From: Clostridia bacterium
Lineage (GTDB): Bacteria > Bacillota > Clostridia > Oscillospirales > CAG-272
Assembly (NCBI GenBank): GCA_017935225.1
Contig: JAGBIA010000029.1
Location: 1-41,952 of the forward strand
Direction of reading: 5' to 3'
Length of the DNA: 41,952 bases
Part shown: positions 12,412 to 31,944 of the stretch, piece by piece
Position numbering within the stretch: the first letter of the stretch is position 1
How the letters are laid out: each line of letters starts with the position of its first letter
Position numbers and translations under genes: made by a program
Notes under the pieces: model-generated
What the model was told of the DNA's origin: nothing
Databases searched by the model: none
What the model saw: only the letters and a program-made list of their open reading frames with translations

Positions 12412-12789
12412 CTATGCCTCATTCTCCAAGATCCAATCGAGAAGCTCCTGATATTTCATCTCCCCAGCCGCGACGGCGAGACCGACACGAGCGACCTCTG
12501 CATTGGTGGGGCGGAGTTTGATGCCGTTTGTTTCAAGGAAGGTGAGTAGAACGTACATTCCTATTCTTTTATTTCCATCCACAAACGCGTGGTTGGATAT
12601 CAGCGCAAAGCCAAGCCGCGCGCCTTTTTCCTGCTTGGTAGGATATAATTCTTTTCCGTCAAAGGTCGCAAAAGCCGATTCGAGCGCGCTGTTTAGAAGC
12701 GTGATATCGCGCACGCTCGGGTCCCCGCCCGTTTCCTCTGTAATGAGCTTGTGCAACAAAAGCACCTTTTCCTGACTGAATTTGATCAT
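12412..12789 (-). CDS. doc: Doc-type Fic-fold toxin
   Basis: 125 residues. The Fic/Doc signature HAFVDGNKR lies near residues 67-75. The Doc form (H-x-F-x-D-G-N-K-R) is known to phosphorylate elongation factor EF-Tu and stop translation, unlike AMP-transferring Fic proteins. Length matches Doc (about 125). It overlaps the upstream antitoxin gene by 4 bp (ATGA), the usual phd-doc order with antitoxin first. All signature residues are intact, so the toxin should be active when not bound by Phd. Confidence 0.9.
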   Translation of the reverse strand: MIKFSQEKVLLLHKLITEETGGDPSVRDITLLNSALESAFATFDGKELYPTKQEKGARLGFALISNHAFVDGNKRIGMYVLLTFLETNGIKLRPTNAEVARVGLAVAAGEMKYQELLDWILENEA

Positions 12790-13028
12790 TTCGCAAGCTC
12801 CTCAAATGCAGGACGGTAGAGCTTGAGAATACGCGCCGCCACAAAGTCGATCTTTTCGTCGTCGGTCATTTCTATGGTAGTATCCTGCTCGAGATCCACC
12901 AGCTTATATTTTGGCTTGTTGTTCTTAAAAATATAGAGCTCCCCTTGCTTTTCGGTCATTTTCGCCACGCGCGAAAAATTCTGATTAGCCTCAGAGATCG
13001 AAACGATCTTTTTGGTATCCAAATTCAT
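12786..13028 (-). CDS. phd: Phd/YefM-family antitoxin
   Basis: 80 residues from the ATG at 13028, chosen because a GGGGGT ribosome site lies just upstream; an in-frame start at 13073 falls next to the promoter and is rejected. The N-terminal part (SISEANQNFSRVAKMTEKQG, then YIFKNNKPKYKLVD) matches the Phd/YefM DNA-binding fold. The C-terminal 30 residues would bind and neutralise Doc. It is co-transcribed with doc. An inverted repeat spanning the -35 box upstream is the likely autoregulatory site. Confidence 0.88.
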   Translation of the reverse strand: MNLDTKKIVSISEANQNFSRVAKMTEKQGELYIFKNNKPKYKLVDLEQDTTIEMTDDEKIDFVAARILKLYRPAFEELAK

Positions 13029-13061
13029 TATAACTACCCCCTTTTTTGAGATTACAATAAT

Positions 13062-13090
13062 ATTATACACCAATTTTAGGACATTGTCAA
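13062..13090 (-). promoter_or_regulatory. phd-doc promoter
   Basis: On the minus strand, TTGACA (13085-13090), 17 bp, TATAAT (13062-13067). Confidence 0.85.
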
Positions 13091-13099
13091 CCTAAAATT
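13072..13099. promoter_or_regulatory. phd-doc operator
   Basis: A perfect 9-bp inverted repeat AATTTTAGG / CCTAAAATT, spaced by 10 bp, straddles the -35 hexamer. Two half-sites one helical turn apart fit binding by a Phd dimer pair. Confidence 0.7.
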
Positions 13100-13105
13100 T
13101 GATTT

Positions 13106-14236
13106 TTATTTTTCAAAAATCACTCGGTTTATGAAAATACTGTTATCGCTGCCGTATTTCGCGCACGCGTCCCAGCCGTGCGGATCGTTCTGCATCCACT
13201 CAGCCGCGTAGATATAGCCCTCGCTCTCGGAATATGACTGACAGCCGAAGTTCCCGAGCCGCGCGCCGCGCTCGGCGACCGCTATCTGCTCGGTCGAGCG
13301 GATGACGCACATTCTCTCGGGATCGAATTCGGCGATAAAGAGCGGCGCGCGGTGGCGGAAGATGTGGTCGTTCACCCCCGCTCTGCGCGTGTAGACGAGC
13401 CAGAGTCTGCCGCCGCCCGTCAGCCAATGCTGCTGGGTATTGTAATTACCGAGGCTCGCGCCGTCGTCAAAGCAGAGCTCGCGCACGTCCTCGAAATGCA
13501 AGCCGTCAGAGCTTTTGGTAACAAATCCCGTCACGTCGTTGCGCAGGGTGAGGAAATATTCGTCCTTATGCTTTATTATCGACGGTTCGTCAAAGCCGCG
13601 CGGAACGTCAATGCTGAGCGCGCGCCCTATCTCGATCACGCGTATGCTCTCGCCGTCAAACGAGCAACGCATCACGGCGGCATCCGAGCAAGCGTCACCG
13701 CCTGCGCACTTTTCGTAGGAGCGGTAGTATATCGGGATAAGCAACTCGCCCGATTCGGTCTCGAGTATCTGCGAGCATCCCGCGCCTGCCGAGAAATATG
13801 CCGCCTCGTCGGGCATCTCGATGCTCTTCCATTCACCGAAATCTCCGCTCTCCCCGTCGTACACCGCATACGCGGTGCTCCTCGGGCGAGGATCCTTTAA
13901 TATTTTATTATCACTTCCATAGACTACGGTATGCCCCGTAAGAATGATCTTGCCGCTCTTTTGGTGGTAAAACGGAGTTGCGTCGCTCATCACCACACTG
14001 CTGCCGTCGGCAAAATATCTGCGAGCGAGATGCTTGCAAAGCTTGGGAGACGAGAAGCTCTTGCCGCCGTCATGCGTGAGCACCATCTCAATTCCGCTAA
14101 AGACGTCGCAACCCGAAATATCGAGCTTCTGCATCGTGATGATACCGAAGCCGCAGGGCATCATCAGCCCTCTCGCGTGTACGTAACAGCGGTCCTTTCC
14201 ACATTCCCATCTTACAGATCTGTTTTCTATTCTCAT
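13106..14236 (-). CDS. Asp-box-like beta-propeller protein beside AraC regulator
   Basis: 376 residues from the ATG at 14236, chosen for its GGAGGAT site and ATGA overlap with araC. The open frame continues upstream into araC and that part is not real. Weak Asp-boxes THDGGKSF (near residue 55) and SSDGLHF (near 245) and repeating beta-strand patterns suggest a sialidase-superfamily or related five/six-bladed propeller. No signal peptide is seen. Motifs such as FDEPSIIKHKDEYFLTLR resemble the conserved blade turn of this superfamily. Substrate is unknown. It is co-transcribed with the PocR-AraC regulator, so it belongs to the same regulon as the facing FAD/GRE genes. Confidence 0.68.
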   Translation of the reverse strand: MRIENRSVRWECGKDRCYVHARGLMMPCGFGIITMQKLDISGCDVFSGIEMVLTHDGGKSFSSPKLCKHLARRYFADGSSVVMSDATPFYHQKSGKIILTGHTVVYGSDNKILKDPRPRSTAYAVYDGESGDFGEWKSIEMPDEAAYFSAGAGCSQILETESGELLIPIYYRSYEKCAGGDACSDAAVMRCSFDGESIRVIEIGRALSIDVPRGFDEPSIIKHKDEYFLTLRNDVTGFVTKSSDGLHFEDVRELCFDDGASLGNYNTQQHWLTGGGRLWLVYTRRAGVNDHIFRHRAPLFIAEFDPERMCVIRSTEQIAVAERGARLGNFGCQSYSESEGYIYAAEWMQNDPHGWDACAKYGSDNSIFINRVIFEK

Positions 14237-15072
14237 TTTGATCCTCCCTTTCTGTACTCGCTCGGAGAGACTCCGACGCATCTTTTGAACACGCTTGCAA
14301 AATAGGTCGAGTCGCAAAATCCGACAGAGAGCGCGATCTCGGTCACGCTGAGAAGGGAATAGCGCAAAAGCGTTTTCGCATCCTCGATCCTCAGCTCGCA
14401 CAGATATTCGCGAAAGCTCTTGCCCGTGCTCCTTTTGAATCGGTGGCTTATCGACGAGCGACTGCAGGCAAATTCCCTGCATATATCATCGAGCGTGATA
14501 TTCCGCGTGTGGTACCGCTTTACGTAGCGTAGTATTTTGTCCATCTGCCCCTCTTCGAGTGTCGCACCGTCCTCGGCGCGCAGATATGCAAGCTCAAGCA
14601 TACTGCAAAGCGGCCGCAGTAGCGTATCGACGTATTCCTTTTGCGGCATATCTGCCTTGAGGCCCTGATACGCCTCGCGCAGTCTATCTTCGGGTATAAC
14701 GTAGTCTTCTGCCGTTTTTTTAATAAATGAGTCGGCATTCTCCGTGCGATATCCGCTGACCGAGATAAAGCCGACTGTCACGTGTCCGTTACTTATCGGG
14801 TAGACGTACTCCGAAACGCCCGCGAAGCACTTACCGCAAAACGAGCCCTCGCGGCAACGCTGACGCACCTTGCTCTGCCGTTCTATACAGTGCTTTTGCG
14901 CACGCTCGAAGGTCTTGATATAAACGCAATATGGATTGTCGTGAATATTGAAGGTGATAAGATCGCTAAGACTTATCAGCGACTCGTTGCCGTATGGGTG
15001 AAGCGTGAGCGAGAGTCCGCACTCGCTCCGCAGATACAGTATGTAATTTTTTATATCTTTTGTGTCGTACAT
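14233..15072 (-). CDS. AraC-family regulator with PocR-like sensory domain
   Basis: 279 residues from the ATG at 15072; AAGGAGAG sits just upstream, inside a longer in-frame GTG start that is rejected. Residues about 5-165 resemble the PocR sensory domain, with a Cys pair in FCGKC followed by a glycine-rich strand region VYPISNGHVTVGF. PocR domains are known to sense small diols or related compounds. Residues about 180-279 form two helix-turn-helix motifs of the AraC type (DDICREFACSRSSISHRFK and VTEIALSVGFCDSTYFASVF). It probably activates the divergent FAD oxidoreductase operon and perhaps the glycyl-radical genes, whose promoters lack good -35 boxes. Confidence 0.85.
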   Translation of the reverse strand: MYDTKDIKNYILYLRSECGLSLTLHPYGNESLISLSDLITFNIHDNPYCVYIKTFERAQKHCIERQSKVRQRCREGSFCGKCFAGVSEYVYPISNGHVTVGFISVSGYRTENADSFIKKTAEDYVIPEDRLREAYQGLKADMPQKEYVDTLLRPLCSMLELAYLRAEDGATLEEGQMDKILRYVKRYHTRNITLDDICREFACSRSSISHRFKRSTGKSFREYLCELRIEDAKTLLRYSLLSVTEIALSVGFCDSTYFASVFKRCVGVSPSEYRKGGSK

Positions 15073-15139
15073 AGTCTCTCCTTGCACGTTTTTACATAAA
15101 TACAGCGCATAATCTAAGGAATACAGACTGTTTTTGTGC

Positions 15140-15172
15140 TATCATTATACCATAAGCTTTAGGAGGTTTCAA
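15140..15172. promoter_or_regulatory. Overlapping divergent promoters, araC and FAD gene
   Basis: Minus strand, for araC: TTGAAA (15167-15172), 17 bp, TATAAT (15144-15149). Plus strand, for the FAD gene: extended -10 TGC-TATCAT (15137-15145) with no recognisable -35, as expected for an activator-dependent promoter. The araC -35 sits on the ribosome site and start of the FAD gene, so the two units interfere. Confidence 0.6.
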
Positions 15173-15173
15173 T

Positions 15174-16448
15174 ATGAAATACGAAATTGATCTGAAAATA
15201 AATTCGAGCTACGACGTTATCGTGGTAGGCTCGGGCCCTGCGGGAGTTGCGGCGGCTATCAGCGCGGGAAGGAACGGAGCAAGCACACTGCTTATCGAGA
15301 GCTGTGGCAGAGTTGGCGGCATCTCGACCTCGGGAATGATGAGTCATTTCACGGGCAGATGCGGAAATCCTCTCTACCGTGAGATACTGCAAAGATCCGC
15401 CGACAAGAACTATTTTGCGCCGGGCGAGGTAACGAAATACATAGATCCCGATATGCTCACGCTGACCTATATCGAGATGCTCGAGGAGGCGGGAGTAAAG
15501 ACTCTGCTCTACACCACATTCTGTGACGTTATGATGGATGGCGAGAAAGTCACGGGTATCATCTGTCACTCCAAGGACGGATTTTCTGCTTTTGGCGCAA
15601 AGACCGTCATCGACGCGAGCGGAGACGGCGACGTAACTTACAAGAGCGGCGCGGAATATATCAAGGGACGCGAGAGCGACGGCAAGATGCAGCCCGCAAC
15701 GCTGATGTTCAAGGTCGGCGGAGTTGATATGGAGCGCGCGGTATTCCCCGGCTCGTTTGAAACGCTCGTTCCCACCGAGCGCGGAGAGCTTCAGGCGCTC
15801 GCAAAAGAGATACTTCCCCACCCCGCAGGTCACGTTCTGCTCTACCGATCGACCATCCCCGGCATCGTAACCTGCAATATGACCAACGTAACCGATATCG
15901 ACGGCACTTCTGCCGAGGATCTGACGCGCGCGGAGACCGTATGCCGCAAGCAGATACCGCACATAGTCAAATTTCTGCGCGAGTACGTCCCGGGATACGA
16001 GAACTGCTATATCATAGGCTCCGCATCACTTATGGGAATTCGCGAGACAAGGCACTTCAAGGGAGTGAGCACCATAACCGAGCAGGAGATCTCTGCGGCA
16101 GTTCAGCACGAGGACGCGGTGGTGTTCGATGCACACTTCAATTTTGACGTCCACAACATCACGGGCGCAGGACTTGATAAGACGGGCTGCCAGAAAAACT
16201 TCAAGCAGAAAAACGGCTACACCATCCCCTACGGATGTCTCGTGCCCGAAAGGATAGACGGACTTCTGCTCTCGGGCAGAAATATCTCGGGCACGCATAT
16301 GGCGCACTCGAACTTCCGAGTAATGCCGATCTGCATCGGCATCGGCGAGGCTTGCGGAGTCGCGGCGGCGCTCGCATCGAAGAGCGGCAGACAACCGCGT
16401 GAGATCGATGCCGCAGAGATACGCGCGGTGATACTTAAAGAAATATGA
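15174..16448 (+). CDS. FAD-dependent oxidoreductase (FAD_oxidored-like)
   Basis: 424 residues. The N-terminal dinucleotide-binding motif VVGSGPAGVAAA is followed by the acidic residue in LLIESC and by GRVGGIS. A second FAD contact is seen in TVIDASGDGDV near residue 145, and the C-terminal FAD segment is LLLSGRNISGTHMAHSN. This layout fits the FAD-dependent dehydrogenase family that acts on polar substrates or reduces unsaturated acids. No signal sequence is present. RBS AGGAGG precedes the ATG. It overlaps the following M14-like gene by 4 bp and faces the PocR-AraC regulator. The substrate is not recognisable. Confidence 0.85.
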   Translation: MKYEIDLKINSSYDVIVVGSGPAGVAAAISAGRNGASTLLIESCGRVGGISTSGMMSHFTGRCGNPLYREILQRSADKNYFAPGEVTKYIDPDMLTLTYIEMLEEAGVKTLLYTTFCDVMMDGEKVTGIICHSKDGFSAFGAKTVIDASGDGDVTYKSGAEYIKGRESDGKMQPATLMFKVGGVDMERAVFPGSFETLVPTERGELQALAKEILPHPAGHVLLYRSTIPGIVTCNMTNVTDIDGTSAEDLTRAETVCRKQIPHIVKFLREYVPGYENCYIIGSASLMGIRETRHFKGVSTITEQEISAAVQHEDAVVFDAHFNFDVHNITGAGLDKTGCQKNFKQKNGYTIPYGCLVPERIDGLLLSGRNISGTHMAHSNFRVMPICIGIGEACGVAAALASKSGRQPREIDAAEIRAVILKEI

Positions 16449-17533
16449 TGAAAATTCACGGTGATTTTATCGGCGGAAACATCCGCGTAAGTGAGATATG
16501 CGGCGACAAAGTCCTGCTTCAAAACGAGCTTCGCGACACGGTCGGAGATTGGTTCTATTGGGCATTCTGCGTCGAGGGCGCAGAGGGGCGCGAGCTCTGC
16601 TTTGAGCTTGGTCAGAATCGCCTCGGCTACTTCGGGCCCGCCGTAAGCTACGACCTTTGCGAGTGGCATTGGCTCGGTGAGTGCGAGGGCGACTCCTTTG
16701 TCTACCGCTTTGGCGAGAACGAGAGGCGCGTGTATTTTGCGCATCATATGCTCTACCACCCTGCGCGCTTTTTCTTGCTCTGCCGGCGACTCGGTTTGCA
16801 GACAGACGAGCTCTGCAAGAGCCGCAAGGGGCGCAGCGTTCCCTGCCTCTGTATCGGTGAGGGTGAGCGCAGTATTATCTTTTGCGCGCGCCACCACGCT
16901 TGCGAGTCGACGGGCAGCTACGTTATGGAGGGCATTATCGAGGAGCTCGCAAGCTCTCCTATCAAGAACGCGCGCACTCTCTTCGTTCCGTTCGTCGACT
17001 TTGACGGAGTTCTCGACGGAGATCAGGGAAAAAGCCGCTATCCGCACGACCACAACCGCGACTATACAGACGAACCGCTCTACCCCGAGGTGCGCGCCAT
17101 CTGCGAGCACCGCGACAGGTACGGCTGTACGCTCGGCTTTGATCTTCATTCCCCTTGGCACAAGGGCGGAGTCAACGACAGGATCTTTGTCGTGCGCAAT
17201 ATGTGTGAAAAGACTCAACGATTTGACGAATTCTCGGCTCTGCTCGAGTCCGAGATCACCGAAAGCTCGATGAAATATTCGCACACCAACGATTTTCCGC
17301 CGCTCACCGCCTGGAATCAGCCGAGTGCGAATTTTGCCTATACGACAAACTCCCGCCCCGATTGCCGCCTCGCCTTCTCGCTTGAGAGCGCGTATTTCGG
17401 CACCGAGGACGATCGCGTATCTGACGCAAAGCTTGTCGAGCTCGGCAGATGCTTTGCAAGAGCGGTCAAAAAATACTTTTTGGAGGCAGATATTTGTAAC
17501 AAATTGTTAACACACTACTCTCTCGCTTTGTGA
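16445..17533 (+). CDS. M14-like zinc metallopeptidase/deacylase
   Basis: 362 residues. The M14 carboxypeptidase pattern is visible: H-x-x-E in RHHACESTGS near residue 148, then PHDHNRDY (the Arg/Asp region), then the third zinc ligand in GFDLHSPWH near residue 240. A Glu in SLESAYFG near 330 is the probable general base. The N-terminal 130 residues form a separate beta-rich domain like that of cytosolic M14 proteins of the AGBL/CCP group. No signal peptide is seen. Such enzymes remove C-terminal amino acids or cleave N-acyl/aminoacyl groups from small molecules. Coupled by ATGA overlap to the FAD oxidoreductase, it may release an amino acid from a conjugate. Confidence 0.78.
   Translation: MMKIHGDFIGGNIRVSEICGDKVLLQNELRDTVGDWFYWAFCVEGAEGRELCFELGQNRLGYFGPAVSYDLCEWHWLGECEGDSFVYRFGENERRVYFAHHMLYHPARFFLLCRRLGLQTDELCKSRKGRSVPCLCIGEGERSIIFCARHHACESTGSYVMEGIIEELASSPIKNARTLFVPFVDFDGVLDGDQGKSRYPHDHNRDYTDEPLYPEVRAICEHRDRYGCTLGFDLHSPWHKGGVNDRIFVVRNMCEKTQRFDEFSALLESEITESSMKYSHTNDFPPLTAWNQPSANFAYTTNSRPDCRLAFSLESAYFGTEDDRVSDAKLVELGRCFARAVKKYFLEADICNKLLTHYSLAL
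17497..17509. promoter_or_regulatory. Palindrome at the glycyl-radical gene promoter
   Basis: Perfect 13-bp palindrome TAACAAATTGTTA, centred about 43 bp before the predicted transcription start. This is a position where activators commonly bind. It lies inside the 3' end of the M14-like gene. Confidence 0.5.
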
Positions 17534-17539
17534 TATAAT
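17531..17539 (+). promoter_or_regulatory. Extended -10 promoter for the GRE operon
   Basis: TGATATAAT matches the extended -10 form TGnTATAAT. No -35 hexamer is recognisable 17 bp upstream. The site overlaps the stop of the preceding gene. Confidence 0.6.
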
Positions 17540-17561
17540 TAAAAAAACGGAGGTGGCGGAT

Positions 17562-19553
17562 ATGACTGATCACGAATTGTTTTTATCAATAAACGAGCCT
17601 TTTGCGGCAGGTCTTTTTGAGATTGAGGGCGCGTCGCCTATGATCCGATTTGCCAACGCGCTCAAGCGATTTTGGGAGAGCGCGGCTCTTCCGCCCTACG
17701 GGAGCGGCAGGCTCTATCCGTCGGGCAGAAATATATTCACTTTTTGCGGTGAGTACGCAATAAAGCCTCACAACTCCAACGTATTCGAGGTCAATTGGTC
17801 CCTGCTCTCGTCCAAGAGCGAGAGAGCCTGCGATATTATGCGCGCCGAGTACGACCTCGTCTTTAAATTCTACGGCAATCCGCACACGGTCGGAGGAATG
17901 GGATGGACTCACTCCTTCCCAAACTACACAAGAATTCTTCGCGACGGACTCTCTTCTTACGAAGAGAGAGTGAACGCGCTCGAGGATGGCGACTTCAAGC
18001 AGAGTCTGCTGATACTGCTTGAGGGAATAAAGCTCTACCACACGCGCTGTCTTGAGCATCTTAAGGAGCAGAATGCGCCGAGCGAGCTTATCTCGGTCCT
18101 GCAAAGGATGCCCTACGAGATACCGAAGAGCTTTTACGAAGCGCTAATCTCGCTCAACTTCTGCTATTATCTCGACGGCTGTGACGACATCGGTCCTATA
18201 GACCGCACGCTCCTGCCCTACTACAAAGGCGAGGACATCGACGAGCTTGTCGGGCTCTTCCGTGAATTTTTCAAAAACGTAGATCTCAACGACGGCTGGT
18301 CGGGCACGCTCGGACCTGACTACAACGAGCTGACACGCGCCGCTATCCGCGCGATAAAGAACGGACGGCGACCTAATCTTCAGCTACTTGTCAAAAAGGA
18401 TATGCCCGATTGGGTATGGCAGGAATGCGCCGACACGCTCTCAAGCAGTTGCGGTCAGCCTGCGTTTTACAACTATGAGCTATATACCGAGCGTCTGCGC
18501 CTGCTGATGCCCGACGTACCCGAGGAGGATATGCGCCGCATAGCCTTCGGCGGATGCACCGAGACTATGTTCGAGGGGCTCTCGAACGTCGGCTCGGACG
18601 ATGCGGGCATAAACACCGCGCTCGTGCTCTCGGACTATATGCGCCGCGAACTTGCGAACTGTGCCGACTATGAGGACTTCTATCTCGGCTATATAGGCGA
18701 GCTGAGGCGGGTTATCTCCGAGGTCGAGGACCTCGTCAACAAGTACCGCAGAACGCGTGCGCTCCACCGCCCCGCGCTCGTCAGGACGCTTCTCGTCGAC
18801 GACTGCATCGACACGCGCACCGAGTTCAACCGTGGCGGCGCAAGATACGTCTACAGCGTCATCAATATTGCGGGCGTTATCAACGTTATCGACTCGCTCT
18901 CGGTCATCCGCGAGCTGATATACGAAAAGAAGCTCTACAGTCCGACCGAGTTCATCTCGCTTATGGACGCGCGCGACCCCGACTTTTTGCACGAGGCAAA
19001 GAAGTGCGCTTCCTACGGCAACGACAACGACAGAGCCGACTTCATCGGTGAGCGGCTTATCTCGGATATCACCGCCGCGTTCGATCAGCGCGAATGCTTC
19101 CCGAGAGGAAAGTTCTATCCCGTTGCAAATCAGTTTACTACCTATGCCGACGCGGGCAGGAATATCCCTGCGACTCCCGACGGCAGAGGCGCGGGTGAGC
19201 CGCTCTGCGATTCGCTCGGCGCGATACACAACAACGACCGCAAGGGCGCGACCGCGCTTCTCAATTCGGTCGCAAAGCTCGGAGTCTGTAGAATAATCGG
19301 CACTCCGACCACCAACATCCGCATCTCCAAAAAACAGCTTGCTCCCACGCTCCCCTCGCTCGTAAAGACCTTTTTCTGTGCAGGCGGAATGCAGCTTCAG
19401 GTCTCGTGTCTGTCGCGCGAGGAGATACTCGACGCGATGGCTCACCCAGAAAAGTACAGCTCGCTCGTGGTAAGGATCGGCGGCTTCAGTGAATATTTCA
19501 CCCGCCTCTCGCCCGACCTTCAGCAGACCGTGCTTGAGAGAACGGAGCACTGA
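17562..19553 (+). CDS. Atypical glycyl-radical enzyme (PFL-like family, unknown substrate)
   Basis: 663 residues from the ATG at 17562; GGAGGTG lies 6 nt upstream and overlaps an in-frame GTG that is rejected. The glycyl-radical loop is RIGGF, with Gly641 22 residues from the C-terminus. The thiyl cysteine is Cys332 in GGCTET, which keeps the Cys-x-Glu of GCVE-type dehydratases rather than the Cys-Cys of true pyruvate formate-lyase. The protein is over 100 residues shorter than typical members (780-850), mainly at the N-terminus. It needs the activase encoded directly downstream. The reaction is unknown; a dehydratase or C-X bond eliminase is more likely than a formate-lyase. It would be oxygen-sensitive and cytosolic. 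Confidence 0.87.
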   Translation: MTDHELFLSINEPFAAGLFEIEGASPMIRFANALKRFWESAALPPYGSGRLYPSGRNIFTFCGEYAIKPHNSNVFEVNWSLLSSKSERACDIMRAEYDLVFKFYGNPHTVGGMGWTHSFPNYTRILRDGLSSYEERVNALEDGDFKQSLLILLEGIKLYHTRCLEHLKEQNAPSELISVLQRMPYEIPKSFYEALISLNFCYYLDGCDDIGPIDRTLLPYYKGEDIDELVGLFREFFKNVDLNDGWSGTLGPDYNELTRAAIRAIKNGRRPNLQLLVKKDMPDWVWQECADTLSSSCGQPAFYNYELYTERLRLLMPDVPEEDMRRIAFGGCTETMFEGLSNVGSDDAGINTALVLSDYMRRELANCADYEDFYLGYIGELRRVISEVEDLVNKYRRTRALHRPALVRTLLVDDCIDTRTEFNRGGARYVYSVINIAGVINVIDSLSVIRELIYEKKLYSPTEFISLMDARDPDFLHEAKKCASYGNDNDRADFIGERLISDITAAFDQRECFPRGKFYPVANQFTTYADAGRNIPATPDGRGAGEPLCDSLGAIHNNDRKGATALLNSVAKLGVCRIIGTPTTNIRISKKQLAPTLPSLVKTFFCAGGMQLQVSCLSREEILDAMAHPEKYSSLVVRIGGFSEYFTRLSPDLQQTVLERTEH

Positions 19554-19554
19554 T

Positions 19555-20400
19555 ATGTCGGGAACTCTGTTTAATATCCAAAGATTTTGCACCGACGACG
19601 GACCGGGAATTCGCACGACGGTATTCTTCAAGGGCTGTAATCTGCGCTGCGCGTGGTGCCACAACCCCGAGAGTCAGTTGAGAGACGTGCAGTTGATGTT
19701 CTTTGCCGACAAGTGCATAGGCTGCGGCAAATGCAGTGAAAAATGCCCGAACGCGCTCGAGAGCTGTCAGCTCTGCGGCAATTGCGCGCTCTATTGCCCC
19801 GAGGACGCAAGAGAGATCTGCGGGCGGGAATACAGCGCCGACGAGGTGATGGACGAGATACTCAAGGACAGAGCCTATTACGAAGCCTCGGGCGGAGGCG
19901 TGACCTTCTCGGGCGGCGAATGTATGCTGCAGATCGACTTCCTTTGCGAGCTGCTCAAGCTCTGCAAAGAAAATGGCATCCACACCTCAGTCGACACCGC
20001 GGGATGCGTGGAATACAGCCGCTTTGAGAAAATTCTCCCCTATACCGACCTCTTTTTGTACGATCTCAAATGCGCCGACGCGGATACGCACAAAAAGTAC
20101 GTGGGAGTCGACAACGCGCTAATACTTGAGAACCTCGGCAAGCTCTTTGACGCCAAAAAGGATATATGGATACGCATTCCCGTAATCCCTGCCGTCAACG
20201 ACACCGAACAAGAGATGCTCGCGCTCAGGCAGATCATATCCTCCCGCGGCAGACCGTCGCGCATCGAGCTTCTTCCCTATCACGCGATGGGCGAGCACAA
20301 ATACGCCGCGCTCGGAAGAGAAAAAGAGAGCTTCTCGGTGCCCTCGGACGAAAAGATGCAAATGTTAAGGAATATTTTTGATAACTACAATAATTGCTAA
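19555..20400 (+). CDS. Glycyl-radical enzyme activase (radical SAM)
   Basis: 281 residues from the ATG at 19555, one base after the GRE stop; the longer upstream frame overlaps the GRE gene and is rejected. The radical-SAM Cys motif GCNLRCAWC is at about residues 28-36. It is followed by a ferredoxin-like insert with two Cys clusters (CIGCGKCSEKC and CQLCGNCALYC) that would hold two further [4Fe-4S] centres. This insert is found in activases of dehydratase-type GREs and not in PflA. GGVTFSGGECMLQ matches the SAM-binding glycine-rich strand. It should abstract hydrogen from Gly641 of the upstream enzyme. Confidence 0.92.
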   Translation: MSGTLFNIQRFCTDDGPGIRTTVFFKGCNLRCAWCHNPESQLRDVQLMFFADKCIGCGKCSEKCPNALESCQLCGNCALYCPEDAREICGREYSADEVMDEILKDRAYYEASGGGVTFSGGECMLQIDFLCELLKLCKENGIHTSVDTAGCVEYSRFEKILPYTDLFLYDLKCADADTHKKYVGVDNALILENLGKLFDAKKDIWIRIPVIPAVNDTEQEMLALRQIISSRGRPSRIELLPYHAMGEHKYAALGREKESFSVPSDEKMQMLRNIFDNYNNC

Positions 20401-20412
20401 GTTTTTAAAGCC

Positions 20413-20547
20413 AAGCCTCCCTTGTGTAAAGGGAGGTGGCATTTTCGCAAGAAAATGACGGAGGGATTGTAAAAAAAGCAAAATTTTTAGTAAAAAACAA
20501 TCCCTCAGTCGCTTCGCGCCAGCTCCCTTTGCACAAGGGAGCCTTTT
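20413..20547. repeat. 135-bp imperfect palindromic element (MITE-like)
   Basis: The left arm (20413-20470) and right arm (20497-20547) are inverted copies sharing TCCCTTGTG, AAAGGGAG, TGGC and GAGGGATTGT, around an A/T-rich 26-nt centre. Each arm also folds into its own small hairpin (CTCCCTT/AAGGGAG). This unit resembles dispersed palindromes common in gut Clostridia spacers. It fills most of the space between the activase gene and the next promoter and could end the activase transcript. Confidence 0.75.
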
Positions 20548-20625
20548 GTTTTCTGTACATCGACGATAAAATAGGGTTATCGGTAAGCTGAGCGCTGGTA
20601 AATCACCTTTTTTGATGCAAAGCTG

Positions 20626-20654
20626 TTGACAAGGCTATAGAAAAAAGCTATAAT
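20626..20654 (+). promoter_or_regulatory. Promoter of the Asp-box/PfkB operon
   Basis: TTGACA (20626-20631), 17 bp, TATAAT (20649-20654), both perfect. Confidence 0.88.
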
Positions 20655-20684
20655 AAAATCAATACAGCGCAAAGGAGAAAGAAA

Positions 20685-22064
20685 ATGAGAGGTCATAAAT
20701 TCTGGAGCTACTCTCCATACCGCCCGTTTTTGTACGAGGTAGGAGACATATATATCTGCCGCGTCGTTCCAAGCATCAACTCGATCCACCTCGAATGGTT
20801 GCCTGCAGATAGCGTGAGCTACTCGGTCTTCGTCAGAGAGCGCGCGAGCGGTGAATTTATGCTTTGCGGCAGTACCGACGGAACTTGCTTTGATATAAGT
20901 GAGCTCAAGTCCGATACCGACTACGAATTTTTCATCTCGGCAGACGAAAAAAAGAGCCGCGTGCGGCTTGCAAGATGCGGCGAGTCGGTAGGAAGCGTAG
21001 TAAACTATCTCCACCCCGACGATACGTGCTACGCGTTCTCGGGCAGATATCTCTGCTCTCCTTCCTTCGTGCGCCATCCCGACGGCTATCTTTTAGCCTC
21101 GATGGATCTCTACGCGCACGCGCATCCGCAAAATCTGACGCTCATCTTCCGCTCGGACGACGAAGGCGAGAGCTGGCACTACGTCAGCGAGCTGATGCCG
21201 TGCTTCTGGGGCAAGATGTTTATACACAAGGGTGAGCTCTATATGCTCTCCTGCTCGACCGAGTACGGCGATCTGCTCATCGGAAAGTCGAGCGACGGCG
21301 GCAAGACCTTTTCTGCTCCCGCCTGCCTCATTCGCGGAGCGAACGGCAAAAACGGTAGCTGCGGCGTTCACAAAAATCCGCAGAATATCTTCAGCTTTGG
21401 CGGAAGACTGTACAATACGCTTGAATGGGGAAGCTGGGCAAACAAGGTCTACGGACACGCGGCTATGGTAATGTCCTGCGACGAGAATGCCGATCTGCTC
21501 GATCCTGAGAGCTGGAGCTTCTCCGAGCCCGCACCCTTCTCGCACTTCACCCCCGAGCTTGAAGGACTGCCGCAGAACACGATGACCATTGAGGGAACGC
21601 TTACGGTCGATCCCGAGGGTAAACTTATAAACATTATGCGCTTTGGCAAATTCAACACGGCTCTCGTCTACGAGGTGAACACGACCGACCACGACGCGCC
21701 TCTCAAATTCTCGCGGCTTATGGATTTTTCGGCAAACTACTCGAAGTTTATGATCAAGTACGACGAGCGTTCAGGCTACTACTACACGGTCTCAACGCGA
21801 GTCTATGACGAAAAGAAAACGAGCGCGCGCGACCTGCTCTCGCTGATGCGCTCGAAGGATCTGCGCACTTGGGAGGTAGTCTCCGATCTGTTCGACTATC
21901 GCGACCGCAACGACACTGCGCACGTCGGCTTTCAGTACGTGGATTTTGCGATCGAGGGCGAGGACCTGCTCTTCCTCTGCCGCACCGCGCTCAACGGCGC
22001 AAACAGCTACCACGACTCGAATTATTCGACCTTCCACAGAATAAAAAATTTCAGAAAAATATAA
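20685..22064 (+). CDS. Asp-box propeller protein with N-terminal Fn3-like domain
   Basis: 459 residues, RBS AAAGGAG. Residues about 25-98 look like a fibronectin type III domain (IHLEWLPADSVSYSVFVRE, then SELKSDTDYEFFI). The rest is a propeller with Asp-boxes SDDEGESW (about 157) and SSDGGKTF (about 202) and several blade-like repeats. No signal peptide is seen, which is odd for an Fn3-containing glycosidase-like protein and suggests cytosolic action or binding. It is followed 23 bp later by the PfkB kinase gene, presumably in one operon. Catalytic residues cannot be assigned. It could hydrolyse a glycoside whose sugar is then phosphorylated by the kinase. Confidence 0.72.
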   Translation: MRGHKFWSYSPYRPFLYEVGDIYICRVVPSINSIHLEWLPADSVSYSVFVRERASGEFMLCGSTDGTCFDISELKSDTDYEFFISADEKKSRVRLARCGESVGSVVNYLHPDDTCYAFSGRYLCSPSFVRHPDGYLLASMDLYAHAHPQNLTLIFRSDDEGESWHYVSELMPCFWGKMFIHKGELYMLSCSTEYGDLLIGKSSDGGKTFSAPACLIRGANGKNGSCGVHKNPQNIFSFGGRLYNTLEWGSWANKVYGHAAMVMSCDENADLLDPESWSFSEPAPFSHFTPELEGLPQNTMTIEGTLTVDPEGKLINIMRFGKFNTALVYEVNTTDHDAPLKFSRLMDFSANYSKFMIKYDERSGYYYTVSTRVYDEKKTSARDLLSLMRSKDLRTWEVVSDLFDYRDRNDTAHVGFQYVDFAIEGEDLLFLCRTALNGANSYHDSNYSTFHRIKNFRKI

Positions 22065-22087
22065 CAACTGCTATCAGGAGAAATGCT

Positions 22088-22951
22088 ATGAATACGATCG
22101 TCTGCTTTGGAGAGATCCTTTTTGACGTATACCCGACCGAAGCCTTTATCGGCGGCGCGCCGCTCAACTTTGCCGCGCATCTCTCACGTCACGGCGAGAG
22201 CGCGATGATGCTCTCGGCACTTGGCGAGGACGCGCTTGGCGCAAAGGCTCTCGGCTGGCTTGAGGAAAACAAAATAGACACTTCGCTTATCAAGCGCTCG
22301 GCTCTTCCCACGGGAAGATGCAACGTGACGATCGGTGAGAACGGTGTGCCGAGCTACGAGCTGCTCTGCGACGTTGCGTGGGACGAGATAAGCACCGACA
22401 TCTGCTCGCGCCGCTTTGACGCGCTCTATTTCGGCACGCTCGCGCTCCGCTCGGAGCATAACCGCGCCACGCTCGAGAGGCTGATCGCAAATAACGACTT
22501 TGGCGATATCTTCGTCGACGTCAACATCCGCAAGCCATTTTATTCTGTCGACTCGCTCGCCATCGCGCTCTCAAACGCGACGATCCTGAAGATCAGCGAC
22601 GAGGAGCTGCCCACCGTCGCGAGTCTTTTGGGCTTGAATTTCACCGATAACAAGGAATTCTGCGAGCTTCTCTGCGAGAAATTCGGCAATATCAAGCTGA
22701 TCGTCCTCACACTCGGCGCAAATGGTGCGCTCTGCTATGAGGCGAACACACAACAGCTCACAAACACCGCCGCACGCAAGGCAAATGTGGCATCGACGGT
22801 CGGCGCGGGCGACTCATTTTCGGCGGCTTTTTTGCATAAATATCTCGGCGGCTCTACGATCGAATCCTGCCTTGACTACGCATCCCGCCTCGCCGCCTTA
22901 GTCGTCTCGCACTACGAGGCAGTGCCGGATTACTCTCCCGAAGAAATATAA
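22088..22951 (+). CDS. PfkB-family carbohydrate kinase (fructokinase-like)
   Basis: 287 residues from the ATG at 22088, with AGGAG upstream; the longer frame runs back into the preceding gene. Family signatures are GGAPLNFAAHLSRHG near residue 23 and TVGAGDSFSAAFL near residue 238, whose Asp is the catalytic base. DVNIRKPFY is the substrate/ATP-lid region common in fructokinases. It would transfer phosphate from ATP to a free sugar in the cytosol, most likely a hexose such as fructose. It is second in the operon behind the Fn3/Asp-box gene. Repeat A copy 2 begins about 70 nt after its stop. Confidence 0.88.
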   Translation: MNTIVCFGEILFDVYPTEAFIGGAPLNFAAHLSRHGESAMMLSALGEDALGAKALGWLEENKIDTSLIKRSALPTGRCNVTIGENGVPSYELLCDVAWDEISTDICSRRFDALYFGTLALRSEHNRATLERLIANNDFGDIFVDVNIRKPFYSVDSLAIALSNATILKISDEELPTVASLLGLNFTDNKEFCELLCEKFGNIKLIVLTLGANGALCYEANTQQLTNTAARKANVASTVGAGDSFSAAFLHKYLGGSTIESCLDYASRLAALVVSHYEAVPDYSPEEI

Positions 22952-23020
22952 TTTTTTGCAATAATGAATGGCAAAAGCATATCACCGACAAGATAGATGT
23001 CGTTGCTTTGGCTAAAAACC

Positions 23021-30597: not shown

Positions 30598-31944
30598 TTA
30601 TTTTTCAACCGTTATCTCAACGGTAAGTATGCTCTTTCTCTTGACTCCGCTCTCGTCGGGGTAGTAAAAATCGCTGTAGGCAAGCAGAGCCTTGTTCTCG
30701 GCGATCGGCAGGATCGTGCAGTTGCAGCAGCTTCCCGCGTACTCCCAGAAATTCGGGCGCTCGGGAACTATATTGCCAAGTCCGCTTCTGTCGGCATCGG
30801 TCATTATCTCGAGTCCACCGTCCCACGTGTATCCCTCGTCGTCGCTCGCGTAGACGAAAATTCCGGGGCGAGTTATCACAGTAAGCGTCACGCCGCAGTC
30901 AAGTCTGAGAAGTTGCGGCAGCGCGCCGCGATCCTTGAAATACTCGGGTTTGCTCCAGCTCTTGCCGCCGTCGCTCGAGCGTGCAAGATAGGTTGGTCCC
31001 CACTCGGGAGTTCCGCCAAACACGCCGCAGGTGCGGAGCAGGCAGAGCATCGTTCCGTCTGACATAAATTCGATCGACGGCTCCGAAAATCCGTCGCGCA
31101 GATACGCGAAGTGATCCTTTTCGGCGTCGCCCTCGTATCTTATAAAGGAAACACACTCCCAGCTCTCGCCGTCGTCGGTCGACCTGAGGATATAAGCACC
31201 GCCCTTGCCGGTATAAGCGGCAGTCTCGGGATCGCTTCCCTCCTTGTATTCTGCAATCCAGAGAGTTTTTCCGTCAGGTCCGAGCTTTATGCGCGGTCCG
31301 CTGTAGAGTCCGGGTGAGGAGACGATAAGCGTCTTTTCCTCGCCCTTCCAGGAGTCGTAGACCACCTGCGGATCGTAAATTCTGACGAGTCGATGCTTCC
31401 AATCGACCTTTGCTTCGTATTCTTTCGGTGTACTCTCGCCCTTCTTCAAACGGGTAAAGAGCAGCCCCTTCGGGCAGATATCGTCGGGAAGTGAATCCAC
31501 GTAGTAAAGATTGTCAAATCCGCCGAACACGTTGGTCGAGATAGCCACGGGGAACGGAAGCGAGCTCGCGTCCTCACTCTTCTGAGGAAGAACTTCGTCG
31601 GTAGGTATGCGGTAGTTTCCGAACCACTTTGGCTGCTTCATACCCTTCACGCTCTTTGGTGGGAAGGCTCTCGGCATAAGCATATCGCCCTCTGCCGTCG
31701 CGTATCCCATCTTTGCAACATCCTCAGCCGTTGCGGCGACCCAGCTCTTGCCGTCGTCCTCGCTCTGGAGATAGGATTTTCCGCCGTCAATAGCAAACGG
31801 CGCGTCGTCCTCGCAGTGAATGGCGATCAGTATATTTCCGTCAACCGTTCTGTAAAGCCACGGAAATTGTACAAATCCCCAATGAAGCTCCTCGGGGCGT
31901 CCGCCCTGATAAACGAGCTGCGGTTTTCCCATAGTTATCTTCAT
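30598..31944 (-). CDS. Cytosolic Asp-box (BNR) propeller, sialidase superfamily
   Basis: 448 residues. Four clear Asp-boxes lie at about residues 61 (SEDDGKSW), 255 (STDDGESW), 323 (SSDGGKSW) and 367 (SDDEGYTW). The large gap between the first and second boxes holds an insertion of roughly 100 residues. A YRIP at residue 111 resembles the sialidase FRIP motif but lies after the first Asp-box rather than before it, so it is probably chance. No signal peptide is seen. A GGAGG site lies upstream. It is the last gene of an operon with the LRR lipoprotein and the small protein. Confidence 0.78.
   Translation of the reverse strand: MKITMGKPQLVYQGGRPEELHWGFVQFPWLYRTVDGNILIAIHCEDDAPFAIDGGKSYLQSEDDGKSWVAATAEDVAKMGYATAEGDMLMPRAFPPKSVKGMKQPKWFGNYRIPTDEVLPQKSEDASSLPFPVAISTNVFGGFDNLYYVDSLPDDICPKGLLFTRLKKGESTPKEYEAKVDWKHRLVRIYDPQVVYDSWKGEEKTLIVSSPGLYSGPRIKLGPDGKTLWIAEYKEGSDPETAAYTGKGGAYILRSTDDGESWECVSFIRYEGDAEKDHFAYLRDGFSEPSIEFMSDGTMLCLLRTCGVFGGTPEWGPTYLARSSDGGKSWSKPEYFKDRGALPQLLRLDCGVTLTVITRPGIFVYASDDEGYTWDGGLEIMTDADRSGLGNIVPERPNFWEYAGSCCNCTILPIAENKALLAYSDFYYPDESGVKRKSILTVEITVEK

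Follow-up and report, generated by a model that had tools for sequence, protein, structure and literature searches.

Glycyl radical enzymes (GREs) acting as eliminases, including the glycerol and propanediol dehydratases, CutC, HypD and IslA, carry a Cys-X-Glu (CXE) motif, which is described as conserved among GRE eliminases in two papers (PMC7077986, PMC8473560), and published HypD structures give His160 and Glu436 as essential in that enzyme. Sugar-acting GREs are precedented, since E. coli YbiW and PflD are reported in a review to convert anhydrosugar phosphates into 1-deoxyfructose 6-phosphate (PMC12441222). Here, we describe a GRE and its gene neighborhood on contig JAGBIA010000029.1 of an uncultured gut Clostridia bacterium (order Oscillospirales), of which the whole stretch of 41,952 nucleotides (nt), hereafter the window, was analyzed. 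This GRE represents an uncharacterized clade, the GCTE clade, and may be the center of an inducible, mobile anaerobic catabolic island, a reading to which we give an even chance as a whole, inducible catabolism taken by itself being likely. The genes, their coupling and catalytic motifs, the clade, its distribution and its recurrence with partner genes were all read from sequence.

Regarding the chemistry of the GRE, its residues make an eliminase very likely. Cys335, Glu337, His120 and Gly644 are invariant in all 25 full-length clade members (numbering follows the full open reading frame (ORF) of 666 amino acids (aa) from 17553 to 19553, although translation probably starts at the ATG at 17562, behind GGAGG); Cys-X-Glu is present in the Cys loop of each of them, and Gly644 lies in a C-terminal glycyl radical domain. 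The adjacent gene encodes the partner radical S-adenosylmethionine (SAM) activase, above the cut-off of its model (Table 1), with a CxxxCxxC motif and two ferredoxin-type Cys clusters. HypD His160 aligns with His120 in 25 of 25 sequences and, because CXE and this HypD-type His are both present and sugar-acting GREs are precedented, radical elimination is expected for the clade. The elimination chemistry put forward in a preliminary description of this DNA would thus fit the active-site residues. While the CXE motif, the glycyl radical loop, the activase gene and the aligned His are shared with the known GRE eliminases, the clade differs from them by GCTE at the catalytic Cys (25 of 25 members), where the four eliminase references used have GC[VI]E, by its length (663 aa versus 765-831, about 100 aa or more shorter) and by the columns around HypD residues 278-340, which are mostly gapped or changed, Asp339 excepted. 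In the other GREs found with a comparable motif, V, I, Q, W, Y, N or M replaces T, and the catalytic Cys, at 335 here, stands at 419-474 in the eliminase references.

The GRE is uncharacterized and clusters with no known enzyme among those tested, so that the tight grouping with a characterized enzyme, which the preliminary description had named as counter-evidence, did not appear. In a tree of 48 rows, the 25 clade members form one side of a branch (SH-like approximate likelihood ratio test (SH-aLRT) support 100, stem of 1.24 changes per column), and a rerun limited to 14 members of the clade plus 14 other sequences gave support of 100/100 and a stem of 1.29; the references were E. coli YbiW, PflD and PflB, two HypD proteins over cut-off and one CutC over cut-off. 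YbiW and PflD share with the clade the CXE motif and the aligned His and provide a precedent in sugar breakdown, but the GCTE clade forms a separate tree branch; moreover, frw phosphotransferase system (PTS) genes flank pflD, whereas no PTS family was found among the 27 window proteins, part of the window ORFs, that were scanned with Pfam. E. coli ybiW lies near fsaA.

That the GRE is merely a divergent HypD, CutC or pyruvate formate-lyase (PFL) ortholog is extremely improbable and was rejected on model scores, trees and pocket residues. It is true that the best-scoring model for the activase is that of the HypD activase, at 355 bits under a cut-off of 425, and that HypD His160 and Asp339 have counterparts in the GRE. 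However, NCBIfam scores of the GRE are far under the cut-offs (184.7 versus 678 at best; HypD 140 versus 1100, CutC 90 versus 1050, PFL 68 versus 994), its identity to five reference GREs is 19.7-23.3%, and the two stems are long as given above. In addition, HypD Asp278 and Ser334 fall in gaps, and Phe340, Tyr450 and Thr645 are replaced by Gly248, Gly352 and Phe528, respectively. The CutC pocket residues Asp216, Phe395 and Tyr506, whose letters agree in the reference used, correspond to His120, Gly248 and Gly352, and the Cys419-Cys420 pair of PflB to Gly334-Cys335. From these replacements we infer a possibly opened pocket, in columns where the alignment is weak.

Table 1. Positions of the genes and sequence elements of the locus in the window.
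Feature	Position	Strand	Observations
GRE, GCTE clade, 663 aa	17562..19553	+	PF02901 134.9 bits, PF01228 66.5 bits
Radical SAM GRE activase	19555..20400	+	TIGR02494 335 bits, cut-off 174.35 (scored on longer ORF from 19489)
FAD1, PF12831 FAD-dependent oxidoreductase	15174..16448	+	PF12831 350.7 bits, GxGxxG
M14-like zinc hydrolase	16445..17533	+	ATGA overlap with FAD1; profile match to M14 structures
PocR-AraC transcriptional regulator	14233..15087	-	PF10114 37.3 bits, HTH_18 (PF12833) 83.9 bits
BNRa, Asp-box protein, 376 aa	13106..14236	-	likely ATG at 14236, overlaps PocR-AraC stop (ATGA)
BNRb, second Asp-box protein	20685..22064	+	PF13088 29 bits (cut-off 31.4), two Asp boxes
PfkB-type sugar kinase	22088..22951	+	NCBIfam matches; 23 nt after BNRb
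Divergent intergenic region	15088..15173		one promoter-like site 15172-15144 (-), regulator side, chance level
L007 junction	17490..17491		1699 nt absent here but present in L007 between M14 and GRE, including second PF12831 gene
Long imperfect inverted repeat, like a miniature inverted-repeat transposable element (MITE)	20405..20560		site of aldolase-like gene in L007; DNA fold z -7.8
Fic/Doc protein and antitoxin-like partner	12412..13073	-	PF02661; beside cluster

The six adjacent genes of the preliminary description were all recovered as ORFs at or near the positions it gave, and its three couplings hold as well, namely the ATGA overlaps of PocR-AraC with BNRa and of FAD1 with M14 and the activase starting 1 nt past the GRE stop. 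Its two "facing" units are in fact divergent and stand back to back, with BNRa and PocR-AraC on the minus strand and FAD1, the M14-like gene, the GRE and the activase on the plus strand, this latter unit probably running past 20400 through BNRb and the PfkB-type kinase to 22951. The overlapping promoters it proposed were not borne out either: a scan of 15060-15200 gave a single promoter-like site, on the regulator side, which overlies the FAD1 ribosome site; its 11 of 12 matches do not rise above chance level, shuffled sequence averaging 0.7 such sites. Compared by eye, locus L086, of another family, has a core of about 20 bp in common with this region. The cluster is flanked by a Fic/antitoxin pair on one side and a GH30 gene on the other.

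PocR regulates 1,2-propanediol and cobalamin genes. The regulator of the window has the same architecture, a PocR sensory domain fused to an AraC helix-turn-helix (HTH), but scores 76 bits against a cut-off of 500 for the equivalog model, and no propanediol-catabolic or cobalamin family was found among the scanned window proteins. Regarding the M14-like protein, no Pfam or NCBIfam model matches it at E <= 0.01, whereas a profile built from 18 relatives matches the bacterial M14 structures 4b6z (over most of the length), 4a37, 3k2k and 3l2n, and nothing else at E <= 0.001. The HxxE motif, a subsequent H, NR and the catalytic E are unchanged across all 18 relatives; H151, E154 and H235 match the zinc-ligand pattern of M14 metallocarboxypeptidases and E314 their catalytic Glu. 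The structures 4a37 and 4b6z are presumably bacterial cytosolic-carboxypeptidase-like M14 enzymes, with which the protein shares these residues and from which it differs by its lack of Pfam or NCBIfam matches and by its clustering with FAD and GRE genes. Elsewhere in the family, two proteins (L056:1723-3279 and L091:1700-3223) have a C-terminal extension that resembles, by eye, a GNAT acetyltransferase. One M14 gene (L087:6370-8459) directly follows a choloylglycine-hydrolase-family gene; a bile-salt link of M14 was rejected as resting on this single locus, and in one paper on new bile-salt hydrolases these are Amidohydro_3 proteins, M14 being unmentioned in the portion consulted.

The clade is narrowly distributed. 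With at most three candidates scored per genome and a threshold of E <= 1e-100, 18 of 394 genomes from the order yielded a clade member, to which genome G052 adds a fragment at a contig edge; of 398 genomes sampled across the phylum, only the window's own yielded one (0 of 397 others). The M14 family occurs (E <= 1e-15) in 20 of the 394 genomes, and 12 genomes have both, when about one would be expected if the two were independent, a comparison confounded by kinship. Three of the relatives are metagenome-assembled genomes, with roe deer cecum and goat colon given as sources for two of them.

Of 26 clade loci, several of them on contigs that end early, five (window, L007, L054, L056 and L062; three lineages) have a PF12831 gene no more than about four genes away from the GRE, and four (the same without L054; two lineages) have an M14 gene there. 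An Amidohydro_3 protein takes the place of the hydrolase in the third lineage, L054, which likewise has a PocR-AraC regulator. Hence, the combination of a hydrolase, a PF12831 flavoenzyme, a GRE and an AraC regulator that had been singled out does recur, in three lineages, where rough estimates of chance give about half a case for FAD near the GRE and far less for M14. Conversely, starting from the M14 genes, PF12831 is adjacent or one gene away in at least 7 of 21 loci (window, L007, L056, L062, L086, L091 and L099). In 11 of the 26 loci, the GRE has an AraC regulator no more than 2.5 kb away, and in nine of these the distance does not exceed 110 bp. The AraC HTH was found in 10 of 134 GRE-neighbor proteins; for 131 control proteins, taken from contigs of the same genome group picked by number, it falls outside the 25 families listed per set and thus occurs in at most 2.

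Comparison with close relatives points to a variable and mobile locus. The source genome of L007 has a RecA 99% identical to that of the window, and its copy of the cluster has 92-94% DNA identity over four main aligned pieces but holds three extra genes, namely a second PF12831 gene (FAD2), a DHDPS-like aldolase gene that separates the activase from BNRb, and a WbsX-type gene preceding the kinase. The simplest reading of the junction at 17490/17491 is a deletion in the lineage of the window, because the M14 protein of the window has a 12-residue tail that runs into sequence lying, in L007, upstream of the GRE; in L007 and most aligned relatives, M14 ends near residue 350. Copies related to the MITE-like repeat occur in L056, L146 and L054. 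In two genomes of the same genus, the GRE clade and M14 are both absent: in one (G386) the flank is preserved as far as SpoIVB and the 9 kb beyond showed no cluster gene, only a distant AraC-type gene, and the contig of the other (G321) ends within SpoIVB. In L086, PocR, FAD and M14 genes adjoin SpoIVB and the same Fic/antitoxin pair, and horizontal exchange is pointed to because this pair is 90% and 86% identical to that of the window although SpoIVB is only 44% identical. A mis-binned contig was rejected, since RecA of the window shares 88% and 84% identity with that of the two genomes from the same genus, against 79% or less with any other listed, and the order of two ABC-transporter genes, one MarR gene and SpoIVB is conserved in the genus. 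Phage origin was rejected likewise, window positions 13000-23000 having no near DNA match among phage records, and the 140 plasmid records with GRE matches were all below 60% identity (24.7-26.0% for the eight listed).

In the mechanism that we propose, the PocR-type sensor would bind the substrate or the product and switch on both divergent units. The activase would then generate a radical on Gly644, to be passed to Cys335, while Glu337, with His120, would handle a substrate hydroxyl, the neighboring group leaving by radical 1,2-elimination. Upstream of this reaction, the M14-like enzyme may free the substrate from an amide-type conjugate, and/or the Asp-box proteins and other hydrolases from a glycoside; the PF12831 flavoenzyme would perform a redox step and the PfkB-type kinase (with an aldolase-like enzyme too in kin) would channel the product. 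The amide-conjugate step is tentative and seems to us clearly below even, and the order deconjugation, oxidation, elimination is a conjecture, one of several possibilities.

Regarding the substrate, genes of sugar type, which the preliminary description omitted, point no less to a sugar-derived compound than to a simple diol or conjugate. PfkB genes are found in the window, L007 and L008, aldolase-like and WbsX genes in L007, GH2 in L008 and L061 and GFO/IDH in L046 and L061, and some distant clade loci have GH2, GFO/IDH, SDR, GH28 or GH39 genes nearby. A sugar-derived substrate is therefore the most likely class, to which we give only about an even chance, if not slightly less, because the control contigs are also rich in sugar genes. 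It is rather doubtful, albeit conceivable, that the GCTE clade is an eliminase family with an altered, opened site for larger amide- or glycoside-conjugated sugar-derived substrates, acting in an undescribed, horizontally exchanged radical route in one order of gut Clostridia.

Several observations weigh against an inducible, mobile island built around this GRE. Carbohydrate families near the GRE have no clear enrichment over the control among the 25 listed per set, and AP_endonuc_2 is found in 2 of 134 GRE-neighbor proteins versus 5 of 131 control proteins. The pocket columns fall where the alignment is most divergent, and HypD Asp339 is kept, aligned with Asp247, in 13 of 25 members. PF12831 genes are abundant (0-16 copies per genome in 19 genomes), so that their link with the GRE is by itself modest, and the flavoenzymes of the three lineages may not perform the same step because those of L054 and L056 have diverged from FAD1 (26-27% identity), the one of L054 being nearest, among those compared, to FAD2 of L007 (37%). 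Furthermore, since 21 of the 26 clade loci showed no PF12831, 22 showed no M14, and the activase was placed beside the GRE in only nine, the clade may cover several substrates. Nor did the exact set of six genes prove to be a fixed module, in view of the further genes inside it in L007, the lack of the GRE clade and M14 in two genomes of the genus, the regulator-FAD-M14 sets standing without a GRE and the 8 of 20 M14 genomes that lack the clade GRE.

These latter sets feed an alternative that we deem rather unlikely, though not negligible, in which two independent units were brought side by side by gene transfer, a PocR-FAD-M14 conjugate unit and a GRE-activase-BNRb-kinase sugar unit, without a shared pathway. 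Indeed, an AraC-type regulator with FAD and M14 has no GRE beside it in L086 (PocR-AraC) and L099 (AraC without PocR match), the 16-kb contig of L008 showed the clade GRE and BNRa but neither FAD nor M14, and an extended -10-like sequence, TGATATAAT, read by eye, precedes the GRE of the window, which is without the L007 gene that separates the two units. Against such a juxtaposition, FAD, a hydrolase and the GRE recur together in two further lineages (L056/L062 and L054), even if with diverged or different proteins, and an M14 gene within four genes of the GRE would by chance be expected, by rough estimate, in well under one of the 26 loci. The route of the preliminary description, in which M14 deconjugates an amide, the FAD enzyme oxidizes a small diol-like molecule, the GRE eliminates and the sugar genes are bystanders, appears improbable: the PocR-type sensor, the conserved catalytic residues of M14 and the repeated presence of an amide-type hydrolase next to FAD and GRE genes speak for it, but no microcompartment or aldehyde-dehydrogenase family was found among the 27 scanned proteins, and PfkB, only 23 nt after BNRb, is kept in L007 and L008.

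As for the remaining genes, BNRa has one strict Asp box (THDGGKSF), with no Pfam or NCBIfam match at E <= 0.01 and no match in the PDB at E <= 1; its name relies on this single box and on a below-cut-off BNR_2 match in a longer relative, and it is a probable sialidase-like beta-propeller. Compared with GH33-type sialidases, Asp boxes are present, while PF13088 is below cut-off in BNRb and unmatched in BNRa. Orthologs of BNRa are found in L007 (93% identity) and L008 (68%), and relatives in 6 of 177 genomes of the order, the window's own counted; BNRb is 93% identical to its L007 counterpart and 35% to that of L041. Besides BNRa, the window encodes three Asp-box/BNR_2-type proteins (1176-2309, 20685-22064 and 30598-31944), the latter two scoring below the Pfam cut-off. 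The kinase, 89% identical in L007 and 46% in L008, is far below the cut-off of every NCBIfam model, the best being 5-dehydro-2-deoxygluconokinase (80.5 bits versus 300). A second GRE, outside the GCTE clade and with its own activase, lies next to BNRa in L007 (L007:3-2755), and in L008 another GRE stands next to the clade one.

Finally, among the titles and abstract openings searched, with subscription papers mostly outside coverage, none was found that describes such a cluster. From its sequence, we consider this locus a real case of a probable eliminase-type GRE of an uncharacterized clade, with its motifs intact, in what we read as a variable, mobile catabolic island, and not a new category of system. 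Several GRE clades have, once assigned, revealed gut trimethylamine, hydrogen sulfide, skatole, hydroxyproline and anhydroglucitol metabolism. The GCTE clade is compact, recognizable by one motif and restricted, in the genomes sampled, to one order, and its partner genes narrow the list of assays.

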